64,000 nucleotides of DNA. Origin: Lachnospiraceae bacterium (GTDB lineage Bacteria > Bacillota > Clostridia > Lachnospirales > Lachnospiraceae). Position 1 is the stretch's first letter, and each line of letters begins with the position of its first letter. The position numbers were made by a program, and so were the translations under genes. Shown here piece by piece: positions 52,720 to 64,000 of this stretch. The stretch is taken from NCBI GenBank assembly GCA_017517305.1, contig JAFWZV010000001.1, positions 155,608 through 219,607 of the forward strand, given 5' to 3'. Under the pieces are notes generated by a model. That model did no database searches and had not been told where the DNA came from. It saw nothing but the letters and a program-made list of their open reading frames with translations.

Positions 52720-52769
52720 ATTGTTAAAATATGTATTTGTAAGTTTATATTTAAAGGCAATGATGGTGC

Positions 52770-53015
52770 AACAAGGATTAAAAACTCCTTACAGAGAGGT
52801 GGGGGCTTGGCTGGAAACCCTGCTAGGGATAAGTGTTAATCTCATTTTCACACCGGAGCTGTATGCTTGAACAAACCCTGGTGATGGCCATGGTAAGTAG
52901 GGTATATCGTTAGTGCACGTTACGCACAGATTAAGTGCGATTATTATAATCGAATCAGGGTGGTACCGCGGAAGTTATGTTTCGTCCCTTAGGAGGATGG
53001 AAGATAGCTTTTTTT
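52770..53015 (+). ncRNA. T-box leader, tRNA-Phe specific
   Basis: The conserved T-box core AGGGTGGTACCGCG is at 52957-52970. Stem I carries a UUC (Phe) specifier at about 52847-52849, followed by the expected AC. A terminator (CGTCC/GGATG arms, then seven T at about 53009) competes with the antiterminator. Uncharged tRNA-Phe should favour read-through into pheST. This accounts for the 380-nt gap. Confidence 0.95.
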
Positions 53016-57881: not shown

Positions 57882-59723
57882 ATGAAAAATTTTAAAGACG
57901 GAATAGCCCTATTAAAGTTCAATCTCTCCTCTGTTATATTGTTCGAGATAATGCACAAGATTATCTCAGTGGCTATACTTGCACCAATAGTGTATGCCAT
58001 ACTTAATTTTTCTATAGACATAGCCGGACTTAATTATCTGTATTCAAGTACTATGATGCTTTACTTTACAAAGCCATCAACCCATGCTTGCTTATTCGTG
58101 ATAATTATGATACTTGCTATGTTCTTTTTGATTAATATCTGCGGAATAATCTGCGCTATGGATTACTCTAAGAGGGGAGAAAAGACAAACCCTATTGTCC
58201 TTTTGCTAAAGGGATTACTGCACGCGCTTAGAGTTATAAGCCCTAAGAATATGGGGATTATATTCTATGTATTGGCGGTGCTTCCGGTTACATTCTCAGT
58301 TATGATATCTGGTTCCTTATTCGGTATTCAGCTTCCAGAATTCTTTAGACAATTTATCAAGGTTAATGAGAGAGCGATAGGTATTGCTCTTGTAATATAT
58401 GTGATTATCTGTATTATAACAATCTTCCGTATATTTGCTCTAAACTATTTTACCCTTCATAGATTCAAATTCGGTGAGTCTGTACAGCTTAGCAAAAAGG
58501 TTATGAAGCATCATGCTCTAGGTATATTTCTAGGAGTGATATTTCTTAATGTGGCATTGGTTGGAATAATGTTTGTGCTTGAAACAGTATTCGCTCTGGT
58601 TGCAAAGGGAGTGCTATCTAACTTTATAAGCTCCAAGGCATTAAGCTTTGGTGTGGATATAGCTGCGGAGATAATATTCTTCGTGGTCTATATTACATTT
58701 TCTGTAATATCCACTCCACTTATATACTCATATATCTGCGCCTGCTTCTATAGGTTTGAGGAGGAGTGCGATAATGAGGAGGTGTTAGAGCGCAGAGCTA
58801 AACGCTTGGAGGAAATAGAGGAAAACAAAGCAGGCAGAGATGTAAGTAAGAGAAATAGCATTGCATACGGAGCCATAGTGGTATTCGGTATTCTATTAAA
58901 TGGCTTGTACATCTATCTTAGTATGACTAACCAGGTTGAGCTTGATATATATTATTCCACCAGAGCCTTGGTTACAGCTCATAGGGGAGACAGCAAGCAT
59001 GCTCCTGAGAATACTATGGCAGCTATACGTCTGGCTGTGGAAAACCAGGCAGACATTGTAGAGATAGATATAAGACAGACCAAGGATGGTGTGCTTGTAC
59101 TTATGCATGATGAATCTCTCCTTCGAACTACAGGTGTAGATAAGCTGGTGGGAGAGGTGGACTATGATTATGTGTCAAGCCTAGATCCAGGTAGTGATTT
59201 CTCAGAGGAATATGCCGGAGAGCCTGTGCCTACCCTTAGAGAGGTATTAGAATACGGCAAGGAGAATAACGTGTTCTATAATATAGAACTAAAGCCTGAG
59301 GATTACTATGAGGGCTACGTGGAGCAGGTAGTATCACTAATTAATGAATTTGAATACGAAAATGACTGTGTGGTAGCATCATCAGACGAGGATGTACTTA
59401 TGAAGGTCAAAATGCTTAATCCAGACATAAAGACTGTATGCATCTTATATGTTGTATACGGCAACTTCCAGGATATGGAATTCGTGGACGGCTACAGTGT
59501 ACGACATAACTTTGTTAATAAGGATTTGGTGAAGAAGATACATGGCTTTGACAAGGAAATCTATGTGTGGACTGTAAATAATGAGACTAAGATTAAGAAA
59601 CTGTTGCTACTTGATGTGGATAGTATAATCACCGACATACCTTACGAGGCTAAGGAGATAATCTATAGCGCTAATGAGTCCTTGTTTACTGATTGGCTGG
59701 GAAGGCTGATAGAGAGATATTAG
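57882..59723 (+). CDS. Membrane-anchored glycerophosphodiester phosphodiesterase
   Basis: 613 aa. An N-terminal polytopic domain of about seven helices (GPDPase_memb-like, 1-350) precedes a GDPD domain (about 365-605) with A-H-R-G-D-S-K-H-A-P-E-N-T, E-I-D-I and H-D-E-S-L-L-R-T-T active-site motifs. Releases glycerol-3-phosphate from deacylated phospholipid or teichoic-acid-linked glycerophosphodiesters. GGAGGAG precedes the ATG. Confidence 0.92.
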   Translation: MKNFKDGIALLKFNLSSVILFEIMHKIISVAILAPIVYAILNFSIDIAGLNYLYSSTMMLYFTKPSTHACLFVIIMILAMFFLINICGIICAMDYSKRGEKTNPIVLLLKGLLHALRVISPKNMGIIFYVLAVLPVTFSVMISGSLFGIQLPEFFRQFIKVNERAIGIALVIYVIICIITIFRIFALNYFTLHRFKFGESVQLSKKVMKHHALGIFLGVIFLNVALVGIMFVLETVFALVAKGVLSNFISSKALSFGVDIAAEIIFFVVYITFSVISTPLIYSYICACFYRFEEECDNEEVLERRAKRLEEIEENKAGRDVSKRNSIAYGAIVVFGILLNGLYIYLSMTNQVELDIYYSTRALVTAHRGDSKHAPENTMAAIRLAVENQADIVEIDIRQTKDGVLVLMHDESLLRTTGVDKLVGEVDYDYVSSLDPGSDFSEEYAGEPVPTLREVLEYGKENNVFYNIELKPEDYYEGYVEQVVSLINEFEYENDCVVASSDEDVLMKVKMLNPDIKTVCILYVVYGNFQDMEFVDGYSVRHNFVNKDLVKKIHGFDKEIYVWTVNNETKIKKLLLLDVDSIITDIPYEAKEIIYSANESLFTDWLGRLIERY

Positions 59724-59825
59724 CAATATGACGGAAATAGGTTTACTAAAACTAAAAAAAATACTTTTATAGGTTATGATATTTTTATCTATTATTTGGT
59801 AAAATCATAGTGGAGGATTAACTAT

Positions 59826-60569
59826 ATGATAAAAGTATGCGTGTGCGATGATGATGTTACAATTGTGAATAGAATTTCTTCTGTGATAGATATTATATCA
59901 AAAAAGAATAATATTACATCTAAGGTAGAAATATTTTATGACGGAGCTACACTTCTTAATAATTTAGAAAATAATAATTCGTATTATGATGTGATATTCT
60001 TAGATATTGAGATGAATAATATGGATGGTATAGAGACAGCGAAGAGGCTTAGACTAAGGGATGAGCTTGCTCATATTATCTATGTAACAAGTCATGAAAA
60101 TTATGCTAAGGATGTATTCTCTGTAAGGCCGTATCAATTTGTCTTAAAGCCATTCAAGGACGAGATAATAGAAAAGTATTTTTTGGATGTGTATGAAGAA
60201 ATAATAAATAATGATGAGGCTTTTGAATTTAAGCATAAGGGAACATATTATAAGGTGCTACTTAAGAACGTAAAATATTTTGAAAGTAAAAACAGAAGTA
60301 TTGAAGTTTATATGACAGATGGGACAATTTATGAATTTTACGATAGACTAGATAGTGTTGAAAAGTATCTATCTAATTCAAAGATGGATTTTTTGAGAAT
60401 ACATAAGTCCATATTAGTAAATTCAAGGTATATAGCAATAAAACGATATGATCACGTTGAACTTACGAATGGTGAAAAACTAAAAATAAGTCAAACAAAG
60501 CGAGGAGAGATTAATGAATACTATATGAGAAAAGTTGAGGAAGTGATGAGAAATGGAATTGATAATTAA
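59826..60569 (+). CDS. AgrA-like LytTR response regulator
   Basis: 247 aa. Receiver domain with D8-D9-D10 and phosphoacceptor D60 (V-I-F-L-D-I-E-M), K-P-F, then a LytTR DNA-binding domain (about 140-240; F-L-R-I-H-K-S-I-L-V-N). First gene of the agr-type locus. It overlaps the kinase start by 17 nt. Its natural targets are the two repeat-bearing promoters before agrD and agrB; that link is inferred. Confidence 0.92.
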   Translation: MIKVCVCDDDVTIVNRISSVIDIISKKNNITSKVEIFYDGATLLNNLENNNSYYDVIFLDIEMNNMDGIETAKRLRLRDELAHIIYVTSHENYAKDVFSVRPYQFVLKPFKDEIIEKYFLDVYEEIINNDEAFEFKHKGTYYKVLLKNVKYFESKNRSIEVYMTDGTIYEFYDRLDSVEKYLSNSKMDFLRIHKSILVNSRYIAIKRYDHVELTNGEKLKISQTKRGEINEYYMRKVEEVMRNGIDN

Positions 60570-61833
60570 TACTATTTTAGGATTATTATTAGCATATATT
60601 GTTTATGAATATTACAGGACATTTTTTGATACTCGCAGGGATTCATTGATGGCGAAATTGGTAATGGGAGCATTTGTTCTTTGGCAACTAATATCAATGC
60701 CAGTGTTTTTTGATATACATATTACGGTAAGAACTACAATAAGTATAATATTTACTTTTGTAGTTGGAATTTGTTTCAATGGCTCAATAATAGGAAAAAT
60801 TGTATTTGCTTTAATTTATAGTGGAATATGGTTTCTTACAGAGATGCTAGTTGGTTCTGTTTTTTTGATGTTAAAAGTTGATGTTGTAAAGTATAGCACA
60901 TTAGGTTCGGCTATTTGTCAATTATGTATGCTACTTTTAGTTAAACTACTTCAATTATTCTTTCGACATAGAAGCATGAGAAATTTTTCTTGGAAGTATA
61001 ACGGTATTTTGATGATAGTTCCAATTGCGGCTATATTCTTTTCATATCAAGTATTTACACTTACATCTAAAGCTGGTACAAAATCAGATATTATTATATC
61101 AAGTATAGCTTTTGCTCTATTGATGGTGTCACTATTTTTTGTTTTTTACATGTATTTAAAATTGGCAGATCGATATGAACTGAAAAGAAAAAATGATATT
61201 TTTGAGAAAGAGATAGCATTACATTCGGAATATATAAGAGAAAAAGAAGATGTTATGAATGAATTTCGAAAAACTAAGCATGACTTGAAGCATAAGTTAT
61301 TGAATGTAATGGATTTGTTAAAAAATAAGAAATATGATGAACTCGAAAAGTACATAGAGGATATTGCAGATCTAAAGATGATGGAAAACATAACTATATC
61401 AAATACAGATAATACTCTTGTGGATGCTCTGATAAATTATAAATATGAAACAGCAAAGAAGAGAGGAATTAAACTAACTGTTAACATGGAAATACCATAC
61501 AATCTGCCCTTTGATAATGCAGATTTGTGTGTCATATTAGGAAATGCATTGGATAATGCTATAGAGGCTAGTGAAAAGGTTCCTAAGGACAAAGCATTCA
61601 TAAATCTTATGATGAGATATGCGGAAGAAAATCTGGTTATAGTGATAGAGAACTATTATGAAGGAATGAGTAGGAGGAATAGAGAAGGAAAATTAATTAC
61701 AAGCAAAAAAGATCATTTTAATCATGGAGTTGGTTTAAGTTCTATCCAAAATTCTCTTGCAAAGTACAATGGTCAGATGAATATAGAAGAAAAAAATTCT
61801 GTATTTAAATTATATATAATTATGTTCAGTTAA
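60553..61833 (+). CDS. AgrC-like GHKL histidine kinase
   Basis: 426 aa. About six membrane helices (1-205) for peptide sensing, then a coil with the phosphorylation site in K-T-K-H-D-L-K-H-K-L, and a GHKL ATPase domain with N-box N-A-L-D-N-A-I-E-A-S and G-V-G-L-S-S-I-Q-N-S. This architecture is that of peptide-pheromone receptors of the Agr/HPK10 type. The transcript ends at the terminator at 61850. Confidence 0.92.
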   Translation: MELIINTILGLLLAYIVYEYYRTFFDTRRDSLMAKLVMGAFVLWQLISMPVFFDIHITVRTTISIIFTFVVGICFNGSIIGKIVFALIYSGIWFLTEMLVGSVFLMLKVDVVKYSTLGSAICQLCMLLLVKLLQLFFRHRSMRNFSWKYNGILMIVPIAAIFFSYQVFTLTSKAGTKSDIIISSIAFALLMVSLFFVFYMYLKLADRYELKRKNDIFEKEIALHSEYIREKEDVMNEFRKTKHDLKHKLLNVMDLLKNKKYDELEKYIEDIADLKMMENITISNTDNTLVDALINYKYETAKKRGIKLTVNMEIPYNLPFDNADLCVILGNALDNAIEASEKVPKDKAFINLMMRYAEENLVIVIENYYEGMSRRNREGKLITSKKDHFNHGVGLSSIQNSLAKYNGQMNIEEKNSVFKLYIIMFS

Positions 61834-61849
61834 GTGATTGTTACGTGAC

Positions 61850-61888
61850 AGACCTATTTGTCTATATGGGGCAAATAGGTCTTTTTTT
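61850..61888 (+). terminator. Terminator separating agrCA-like genes from agrD
   Basis: Perfect 11-bp stem AGACCTATTTG/CAAATAGGTCT, 11-nt loop, T-tract. It isolates the sensor pair from the peptide gene. Confidence 0.9.
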
Positions 61889-61901
61889 ATGTGCAAACCT
61901 A

Positions 61902-61968
61902 TTATTTTCAACATTACATAGTTTATTTTCAACAAGTGACGAAAAAAATCGATTTTTTCTGCTACAAT
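61902..61968 (+). promoter_or_regulatory. LytTR-type repeat promoter of agrD
   Basis: TTATTTTCAACA at 61902 and 61923 (21-bp period), 28 nt, then TGC-TACAAT, an extended -10 at 61963, with no good -35. TCGA lies 14 bp before the -10. Same layout as at 62230. Confidence 0.8.
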
Positions 61969-61997
61969 GCTAAAAAAATATAAAGGAGGACGTATTA

Positions 61998-62156
61998 ATG
62001 AACTTTTCAACCAAGAAATTGACATTTGAAAATTCACTTCCACATTTGATAGCTACTTTAGGAGCAATGTTTGCTCTCTTCGGAGCTAATGCGGGTTGTA
62101 TTGCTATCTTTCATCAGCCAGAAAAGCCAGATTTAAGTAAGCTGAGAAAATTTTAA
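61998..62156 (+). CDS. agrD: AgrD-like cyclic autoinducer peptide precursor
   Basis: 52 aa, too short for usual gene calls. Amphipathic/hydrophobic N-terminal part (1-33), then C34-I-A-I-F, then H-Q-P-E-K-P-D and a basic-acidic tail. The H-Q-P-E-x-P tail after a Cys-containing core is the AgrD pattern: AgrB would cut near F38/H39 and close a thiolactone between C34 and F38. The mature N-terminus cannot be read off. AAAGGAGG precedes the ATG. Its place between a GHKL kinase and AgrB supports the call. Confidence 0.93.
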   Translation: MNFSTKKLTFENSLPHLIATLGAMFALFGANAGCIAIFHQPEKPDLSKLRKF

Positions 62157-62229
62157 TGGGAAGAGGTTTCGAACAACTCTAGATTAACTGTAAACGAGGG
62201 CATAATTCATAATTTGGGTTATGTCCTTA

Positions 62230-62296
62230 TTATTTTCAACAAACCATGCATTATTTTCAACAAGTGGCAAATTTTGTCGAATTTTTGTGCTATAAT
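62230..62296 (+). promoter_or_regulatory. LytTR-type repeat promoter of agrB-xre
   Basis: TTATTTTCAACA at 62230 and 62251 (21-bp period), 28 nt, then TGC-TATAAT at 62291, with TCGA again 14 bp before the -10 and no good -35. Reproduces the agrD promoter. Confidence 0.8.
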
Positions 62297-62322
62297 CGGT
62301 CAAAAATTTTGGAGTGTAAATT

Positions 62323-62958
62323 ATGGAATATATCTCAAACAAGCTGACAGATTTTATAGTAAAAAAAGGTGTAATTCGAGAAGAAGACTATGCAATTTAT
62401 CATTATGGGCTACTGACTGGTATGGAAGTAATGTTATGTGTATTACTGAGCATTATAATATCTATTTTGTTAGATGTGTTGTTGCAGTCCTTTGTAGTGG
62501 CCATAGTTTTATTTTCACTTAGGTCATATATATGTGGAATTCACATGAAAAAGTATATTAGCTGTTTGATATGGTCAACATCTATTTTGACAGCGGGAGT
62601 TTATGCTGCAACCTATATACCGTTATCAAAAGACATATTATTTATCATATGTCTAATCATACTACCAACTATTCATAAACTGTCATATTACACTGTTGCA
62701 TATAATTCACAATCAGATGAAATCCCTTTTTTCACAAAACAAAGAAAACGGATTATAGCAGGTATTTTTGTGTTCGTTATAGTACTGGCTTTCTGTAATA
62801 ATTTAGAACTATTAAAACAGGTGTGCTATGCCCTTGTGGTGGCATTAGCATCTATAGTTCTGGAAAGAATACGAATAAGGTCGCGGAAGAAAAAAAACAA
62901 TATCAGTGAAATTAGTATAAGCAATGATATAGATTACATTTTAAACGAAGGAGAATAG
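62323..62958 (+). CDS. agrB: AgrB-like peptide-processing membrane protease
   Basis: 211 aa with about five membrane helices. The catalytic pair is at H74 and C81 (G-I-H-M-K-K-Y-I-S-C), the seven-residue spacing of AgrB. It should cleave the AgrD tail and form the ring. GGAG precedes the ATG. The stop is 3 nt before the Xre gene. Confidence 0.92.
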   Translation: MEYISNKLTDFIVKKGVIREEDYAIYHYGLLTGMEVMLCVLLSIIISILLDVLLQSFVVAIVLFSLRSYICGIHMKKYISCLIWSTSILTAGVYAATYIPLSKDILFIICLIILPTIHKLSYYTVAYNSQSDEIPFFTKQRKRIIAGIFVFVIVLAFCNNLELLKQVCYALVVALASIVLERIRIRSRKKKNNISEISISNDIDYILNEGE

Positions 62959-62961
62959 GTT

Positions 62962-63183
62962 ATGTTTGACAAGAAGGAATGTGGAGAAAGATTAAGGTGG
63001 CTTAGGAAAACAAAAGGAAAAACACAGGATGAGGTTTCTTCCGATGTGAACATATCTGTAGATACTATTCGTAAGCTAGAGCAGGGAAGAAGAGCACCAT
63101 CTGTAGAAATCGTAAGTATATTAGCAAAGTATTACGAAACAACCACAGACTATATCATATTTGGAATTACACAACCTGACTAA
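62962..63183 (+). CDS. Small Xre-family HTH regulator
   Basis: 73 aa, a single HTH_3 domain (L-R-W-L-R-K-T-K-G-K-T-Q-D-E-V ... S-V-D-T-I-R-K-L-E-Q-G-R-R-A-P-S). No effector domain. It is translationally close to agrB and must share its promoter, so it would be induced with the pheromone system. Confidence 0.88.
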   Translation: MFDKKECGERLRWLRKTKGKTQDEVSSDVNISVDTIRKLEQGRRAPSVEIVSILAKYYETTTDYIIFGITQPD

Positions 63184-63315
63184 GGACATAGTGAGAGGTT
63201 AAGTAGCTTTTAAAACAACAAAGAATAAAGCTTGAAAAGATAATTGATGAAATAGAAATGTAAAAATCTTAATTCCTGTGCAAAAAAATTATAAATATTA
63301 TGGAGAACAAAAGAT

Positions 63316-63891
63316 ATGAAAAGAATTAGAACATTAATAATACATACTACGCTAATAATTATGATAATAGCTAGCAACATCATTGTATGCCACGCCGCAG
63401 ACAAAGAATACGAATACGATGACAGTGGTCGAGTAACCAAGGTGACATATGAGGACGGAAGCTATGAGACCTATGAATATGATGATAACGGAAATATCAT
63501 TCAGATAACATATACGAATGCATCCATAGATAGTTCCCAGGAAAGTACAACTACAGCAGGGAATGGTGATACAACAAGTGACAATGTAGACGAAAATAAT
63601 AATTCACAGTCTGGGAACGGGAATAATAATACAGGGGATTCTAATAATGGTGACGGAGAAGATAGTTCTGGAAATAATACCCAGGGAAATAATTCTTCAG
63701 GAAGCAATTCGTTGAATAATGGCGAAAACAACGAAAGCAATGAAACGAACAGCGGAGAAAACAAGGAATCAAGCAATACAGGTAATAGCACAGGAGATAC
63801 AAGTCACTTAACATTAGCAATAGCAATTATGGGGCTTATGTTAGTGGGAATTTACACAGCATTAAAGGCAAGAGCAAGAATAGATAGATAA
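63316..63891 (+). CDS. Secreted YD-repeat protein with C-terminal membrane anchor
   Basis: 191 aa. Signal peptide (1-28, ending C-H-A-A-D), two YD-type repeats (Y-E-Y-D-D-S-G-R-V-T-K-V and Y-E-Y-D-D-N-G-N-I-I-Q-I), a long Ser/Asn/Gly/Asp/Glu linker, then T-G-D-T-S-H, a membrane helix and a basic end. The end resembles a sorting signal, but the Pro of LPXTG is absent (N-S-T-G-D). YD repeats are usually in Rhs shells; here there are only two. Possibly a target of the neighbouring agr system. Confidence 0.8.
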   Translation: MKRIRTLIIHTTLIIMIIASNIIVCHAADKEYEYDDSGRVTKVTYEDGSYETYEYDDNGNIIQITYTNASIDSSQESTTTAGNGDTTSDNVDENNNSQSGNGNNNTGDSNNGDGEDSSGNNTQGNNSSGSNSLNNGENNESNETNSGENKESSNTGNSTGDTSHLTLAIAIMGLMLVGIYTALKARARIDR

Positions 63892-63914
63892 ATAAAGGGT
63901 AAGAGGGTACGTGT

Positions 63915-64000
63915 ATGAAGATAAATTACAGGATAAAGAGGATAACTAATGGAATATTGGTAACATCAATAGTTATGGCTATGTTACTTGGTGAAACACA
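63915..64000 (+). CDS. Start of a secreted protein, 3' end outside the window
   Basis: 28 codons: a basic start (M-K-I-N-Y-R-I-K-R) and hydrophobic core (I-L-V-T-S-I-V-M-A-M-L-L-G), typical of a signal peptide. GAGGGT is 8 bases upstream. Nothing more can be said. Confidence 0.6.
   Translation, partial: MKINYRIKRITNGILVTSIVMAMLLGET

Follow-up and report, generated by a model that had tools for sequence, protein, structure and literature searches.

The distal end of the 64,000-nucleotide window of Lachnospiraceae DNA analysed here carries an agr-type quorum-sensing locus with the gene order agrA-agrC-agrD-agrB. We read it, with a probability of about 0.75, as a working agr system with split feedback, in which AgrA acts at tandem boxes and the output in this lineage consists of YD-repeat and Rhs proteins. 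Its identity as an agr system is close to certain, judging from its genes. The original prediction of such a locus is correct, and the locus is of the ordinary A-C-D-B lachnospiraceal kind. The additions to an ordinary agr assignment are a rule for the boxes and the probable Rhs output. The features that go beyond that prediction are a hairpin at 62196–62228, two near-duplicate promoters with their boxes, a YD-repeat gene, the start of a further open reading frame (ORF) and the connection to Rhs proteins. Coordinates are positions in the window, which ends where contig C9 of its own genome (G000; 2.72 Mb, 25 contigs) ends, and all features of the locus lie on the forward strand.

Genes of the agr locus

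All genes named in the original prediction are present as ORFs with matches to Pfam or NCBIfam models, each where it had been placed. The agrA gene (59826–60569) encodes a LytTR response regulator of 247 residues, with Response_reg (63.9 bits) and LytTR (48.6 bits) domains that both exceed the Pfam cut-offs. Its product is 74% identical to AgrA of the sister locus in G006 and 56% identical to that in SIG296, a related Lachnospiraceae metagenome-assembled genome (the genus genome G009 appears identical to SIG296, as the contig number and coordinates of agrB match). The agrC gene (60553–61833) encodes a GHKL sensor kinase of 426 residues (HATPase_c_5, 88.2 bits, cut-off 22). The staphylococcal AgrC model covers residues 57–399 of this kinase with 43.8 bits, far below its cut-off of 500, and the AgrA equivalog model gives the regulator 35.7 bits, far below its cut-off of 400. 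The GHKL receptor kinase and the LytTR regulator that define an agr system are thus both present. As predicted, agrC is followed by an intrinsic terminator (61850–61882) with a 14-pair stem and a T run; it is graded strong, and the fold z-score of 61842–61895 is −6.1. The agrD gene (61998–62156) encodes a precursor of 52 residues, in which CIAIF (C34–F38; 62097–62111) is directly followed by HQPE (62112–62123). The hairpin search places a terminator-like hairpin at 62196–62228, in the gap between agrD and agrB. The agrB gene (62323–62958) encodes a membrane peptidase of 211 residues. The search with AgrD and AgrB family models, which had been named as a check, places both proteins over the cut-off (TIGR04223, 26.6 bits against 19; PF04647, 86 bits against 23). 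The xre gene (62962–63183) encodes a 73-residue helix-turn-helix regulator (HTH_3, 50.9 bits).

The AgrB alignment contains 19 sequences, drawn from 7 of 21 places found in one search, 10 of the 12 non-window places found in another, and two further matches in G000. The only invariant columns are R67, G72, H74 and C81, and these include the histidine and cysteine that had been singled out from the window alone. They equal R70, G75, H77 and C84 of Staphylococcus aureus AgrB, with an offset of three; this set comprises the active-site cysteine and residues needed for proteolysis, according to excerpts of PMC10196373. In all 14 aligned AgrDs, four residues separate the conserved cysteine from xQP, and the ring length is constant. 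The five-residue ring C34–F38 is the likeliest signal, in agreement with the original prediction. Ring sequences vary among the 14 (CIAIF, CCLIL, CLVIF, CCLFL, CCLFF, CFYIF and others). CIAIF is unique to the window among them, as had been claimed, but nearly all of the 14 have a ring of their own. A bacteriocin or another cyclic product might in principle be made from such a peptide instead of a signal, but the AgrD model scores over its cut-off, the adjacent genes are of the AgrC and AgrA type and the tail is of the agr type, which makes this alternative very improbable.

The gene order, which had also been called lineage-specific, is not: A-C-D-B is found in 12 of the 19 AgrB loci read and in Clostridioides difficile agr2 (excerpts of PMC3754575). 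In the remaining seven loci, AgrD is either not recognised or located elsewhere. An Xre-type gene lies directly 3′ of agrB in three of the five best loci of the genus (G000, G036 and G021), but not in the other two (SIG296 and G006). In G021 the gene adjoining agrB is less alike (1e-11), and a closer relative (3e-26) lies ~1.5 kb further. The Xre after agrB in locus L118 is identical to that of the window at 44 of 71 positions and is longer (111 residues). By eye, an apparent trace of the missing tail (73 versus 111 codons) can be read in another frame downstream, within 62962–63260. The two further AgrB matches of G000 (L036 on contig C16 and L035 on contig C24) have LytTR and GHKL genes nearby. 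The AgrB ORF of L036 is short (121 codons), and AgrD was recognised at neither L036 nor L035.

Tandem boxes and promoters

The upstream regions of agrD and agrB are 74% alike and constitute a direct repeat of 80 nt. Each contains TTATTTTCAAC twice, 21 bp apart from start to start. The pair before agrD spans 61902–61933 (61902–61912 and 61923–61933), with a −10-like TACAAT at 61963–61968; the pair before agrB spans 62230–62261 (62230–62240 and 62251–62261), with a −10-like TATAAT at 62291–62296. Both hexamers lie 36 nt past the start of the second core, and the box promoters have no good −35 element. This distance is nearly fixed in six promoters of three genomes (36, 36, 37, 36, 36 and 36 nt). 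G006 shows the same boxes and the same layout, with a box spacing of 22 bp before agrD and 21 bp before agrB. In SIG296, agrD and agrB stand in one run behind a single pair whose box is different (TTTATTACAT) and whose spacing is 22 bp. Putative AgrA-type direct repeats are found before agrD and agrB, as in an agr system, with enrichment of the tandem signal before agrD, and AgrA is likely to bind them. In the AgrA alignment, no LytTR residues correlate cleanly with the box letters, and a PDB search with the LytTR part of AgrA gave no match. The agrAC, agrD and agrB genes look like three transcription units, the last two box-bearing. Because terminators lie 3′ of agrC and of agrD, positive feedback would fall on the agrD and agrB units separately and not on agrAC.

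The exact 21-bp pair occurs three times in G000, before agrD, before agrB and at C5:174853, against a chance expectation of 0.008 (base composition) or 0.02 (word frequency). The pair at C5:174853 precedes a copy of the YD-repeat gene that lies downstream of xre in the window (63316–63891). The copy is 97% identical over 473 bases, up to the end of contig C5, and its promoter keeps both boxes, with TATAAT at 37 nt (compared with 36). Each copy of the YD operon runs out at the end of a contig (C9 at 64000, and C5), which would be expected had long near-identical repeats interrupted the assembly.

Several other sites were considered as targets and rejected. An identical 22-bp-spaced TTTTCAAC pair lies in G000 (L186, C2:94500–94529) and in G006 (L187, C89:70912–70941), in the intergenic region between two convergent genes that we take to be mnmE and jag. 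Its −10 candidate is 39 nt from the second core, compared with 36–37 nt, the surrounding DNA is about equally conserved as the pair, and G012 lacks the pair; the sole Rfam match in the locus is far below the gathering score. It is possibly a further site or a small-RNA promoter. Two one-mismatch matches in G000, at C20:19537 and C22:32761, are located within long ORFs. G016 has a series of tandem pairs whose 3-kb locus contains neither agr nor Rhs genes; this series is taken as an unrelated tandem repeat.

Spacing of the boxes in other genomes

The repeats bound by S. aureus AgrA are also ~21 bp apart. In the genomes studied here, every spacing between 14 and 31 was given the score of its best tandem match over ten bases, in 16 upstream regions (13 of agrD, two of agrB and one of the YD gene). 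The mean best match over the 16 regions is 8.1 at spacing 21 and 6.9 at 22, while it is 5.8–6.6 elsewhere. The 13 agrD upstream regions, each from a different genome, show an excess of 1.48 at 21, a value reached by none of 300 shuffles (approximately dinucleotide-preserving, with up to 5% of the length possibly lost). Eight of these 13 have 21 or 22 as their single best spacing, G021 and G355 show a tie with another spacing, and G036, G184 and G196 favour neither; the binomial probability of eight of 13, for 2 of 18 spacings, is 1.8e-5. The 21-bp spacing recurs before agrD in several other genera, with changing box letters.

It is improbable that the boxes belong not to this AgrA but to another regulator, such as Xre or a different LytTR protein encoded in the genome. 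The two further AgrB matches in G000, with their LytTR and GHKL genes, leave some room for such a regulator. But the same spacing is kept before agrD in other genera while the letters change, SIG296 and G006 keep it with no Xre gene after agrB, and in S. aureus AgrA binds to a pair of direct repeats immediately upstream of the promoters of agr, according to excerpts of PMC4227749.

YD and Rhs genes downstream of agrB

Downstream of xre, the gene at 63316–63891 encodes a small protein with one YD (RHS) repeat (RHS_repeat, 37.1 bits, cut-off 22). By eye, it has a signal-peptide-like start; a low-complexity linker and a C-terminal hydrophobic segment are also present. No further terminator was found between agrB-xre and this gene, which would belong to the agrB operon. 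It is followed by the start of another ORF (63915–64000, 86 nt), read as that of a secreted protein, which is cut by the contig end and resembles the start of a 4961-residue Rhs protein of SIG296; 16 of its 28 encoded residues are identical.

In SIG296, agrD, agrB, the YD gene and the large gene form one compact run. The large ORF has 4961 codons, and the last 1600 residues of its product contain 24 RHS repeats and an Rhs-associated core (Rhs_assc_core, 58.7 bits, cut-off 32.5), with ~320 residues C-terminal to the core. YD repeats, core and C-terminal domain, the parts looked for in such a protein, are all there. Polymorphic toxins typically combine an Rhs core, a C-terminal part, a small ORF and an orphan core fragment. 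The region 3′ of the giant gene (L073, 1–1250, minus strand) resembles a spare toxin cassette: it holds an ORF of 132 codons and an orphan fragment of an Rhs core whose end differs. The 132-codon ORF is a candidate immunity gene. Neither Pfam (E 0.01) nor NCBIfam (E 0.1) names a toxin domain in the SIG296 giant. Judged from anatomy only, the Rhs/YD proteins would act as toxins.

G006 has a different set after agrB: an EsaA-like gene, a WXG100-like gene, several small ORFs and a 1742-residue Rhs protein with a core of 55.8 bits. EssC scores over its cut-off elsewhere in all four genomes tested (G000, G006, G009 and G021). In total, YD/Rhs genes follow agrB in three of the five best loci of the genus (G000, SIG296 and G006).

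The following points weigh against agr control of a YD/Rhs output, or against the box evidence for it. Nine exact pairs occur as background in 35 genus genomes besides G000 and G006 (four share one word, two share another and two lie within one tandem run), and because of this background the three pairs in G000 are modest evidence by count alone. Spacing 21 was picked post hoc in G000; when G000 and G006 are left out, the excess is still 1.28, a subset value given without shuffles. The YD-gene upstream regions of 13 loci in other genera have an excess at 21 of only 0.37, which 18 of 300 shuffles reach, and agr control of the YD module is therefore not general. Six of these 13 regions do have an 8- or 9-of-10 match at 21 or 22, and likewise at other spacings. 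A direct comparison is offered by G107, in which the agr locus has its own 21-bp box and the YD gene has none such before it. The large ORF in G000 amounts to 86 nt, and no more of it was found when RHS repeats and the first 1816 residues of the SIG296 protein were used as queries, an empty result that by itself shows little. In G006 the EsaA (63.9 bits, cut-off 122) and WXG100 (31.8 bits, cut-off 44.85) matches are below the NCBIfam cut-offs. No Rhs/YD protein is found in the fetched stretches of G021, G036 and ten agr loci of the family; three of those ten genomes (G107, G091 and G184) carry a small YD gene on another contig.

The pairing of the YD and giant genes is itself not limited to the genus. 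Among 13 lachnospiraceal loci outside it (L120–L134, several loci), ten have a small single-YD gene directly 5′ of a large YD/FN3-like ORF. Because small YD genes recur in the family and, as a group, lack clear 21-bp boxes, the linkage of agr with YD/Rhs genes either arose by capture in this lineage or is accidental in part. Two of the loci also have regulatory genes nearby. In G162 (L121, 6038–8960) the YD-plus-giant pair is immediately preceded by genes for a GHKL kinase and a LytTR-like regulator, and neither AgrB nor AgrD was recognised in the stretch. In G091 (L124, 618–2918) an AgrC/AgrA-like pair is followed by an AgrD-like ORF of 47 codons (ring CWFFL, tail YQPKLP), ~6 kb before the YD-plus-giant pair, and no AgrB was recognised.

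Taken to its end, an accidental linkage would mean that agrD and agrB are the only meaningful direct targets, that the YD/Rhs genes became neighbours by an accident of insertion, and that the C5 copy brought a piece of agrB-like promoter along by duplication. The occurrence of YD-plus-giant modules in other genera without clear boxes, the resemblance of the C5 YD promoter to that of agrB and the lack of Rhs genes downstream in G021 and G036 all fit this view. We nevertheless consider it unlikely. YD/Rhs genes follow agrB at a majority of the best genus loci, and the Rhs protein of G006 is built differently; the C5 copy retains the two boxes, with its −10 hexamer shifted by one nucleotide; and a copied promoter would still put its gene under AgrA.

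Proposed mechanism

From agr biochemistry, AgrB would cut AgrD after F38 and close the thiolactone between C34 and F38, the N-terminal tail of AgrD would be trimmed during export, and AgrC would sense the peptide and phosphorylate AgrA. AgrA would then act at the tandem boxes 21–22 bp apart, with the second core ~36 nt before the −10 hexamer, a step for which the sequence gives support. Feedback would fall separately on agrD and on agrB-xre-YD and possibly the large ORF, but not on agrAC. The output would be the small YD-repeat surface protein and, judging from the sister genomes, large Rhs/YD proteins with the architecture of polymorphic toxins. The gene arrangement would thus put Rhs output under agr control, and at high density the signal probably activates antagonism.

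A bolder version is that the agr pheromone directly gates giant, teneurin-like Rhs weapons, through the boxes at the signal genes themselves and, in trans, at a second weapon operon, as a fast-changing killing module controlled by a kin signal. The rings differ across three sister genomes (CIAIF, CLVIF and CCLIL), and the box differs in SIG296. The downstream Rhs proteins differ as well, with a secreted giant in SIG296 and a type-VII-like one in G006. We hold this version tentatively, at slightly less than even odds. Here the DNA names candidate agr targets and their box, and the output that it suggests is interbacterial weapons. Should the rule of 21-bp boxes extend past the 13 genomes tested, agr regulons could be read from genomes alone.

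Outside the locus, the window contains a T-box leader at 52751–52992 before a synthetase-like gene pair, which we take to be phenylalanyl-tRNA synthetase-like.

Comparison with known systems

Like the window locus, S. aureus agr has the R/G/H/C set of AgrB (PMC10196373), autoinducing peptides with a cysteine-plus-four-residue ring (PMC3673130) and direct repeats for AgrA before the activated promoters (PMC4227749), each as given in excerpts of these sources. It differs in gene order (agrBDCA), in the sequence of the box and in its feedback, which in the window apparently does not fall on agrCA. No Rfam family matched 59600–64000 at E 0.5, and thus there is no match to RNAIII there.

Control of toxins by quorum sensing has a partial parallel in Bacillus subtilis RapP/ComA, whose signal chemistry and regulator differ from those of agr. 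Quorum-sensing mutants there alter the expression of ywq, an operon for a type VII substrate toxin, and the excerpts of PMC12935306 describe no linkage of signal and toxin genes. Agr is named among the regulators of the type VIIb secretion system (T7SSb) in S. aureus in excerpts of PMC10765036. No paper joining agr with Rhs or YD-repeat toxins was recognised among the matches listed, and one may be in print. PMC13018210 deals with bacterial teneurin-like toxins; no word beginning with Lachnospir occurs in its main text. The SIG296 protein is like the Rhs/YD polymorphic toxins (WapA; bacterial teneurin-like) in its YD repeats, Rhs-associated core, own C-terminus, small next ORF and orphan core fragment. 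In contrast to these, it is paired with a small single-YD protein and, in this lineage, with an agr locus, and no toxin domain is named in it.

C. difficile agr2 (agrACDB) has the same four genes as the window in the same A-C-D-B order, including a LytTR regulator. A single transcript is suggested for it in excerpts of PMC3754575, whereas the window appears to have AC, D and B as separate units, set apart by terminators and box promoters. The window lineage differs further from agr2 in the YD/Rhs-type genes that follow agrB.

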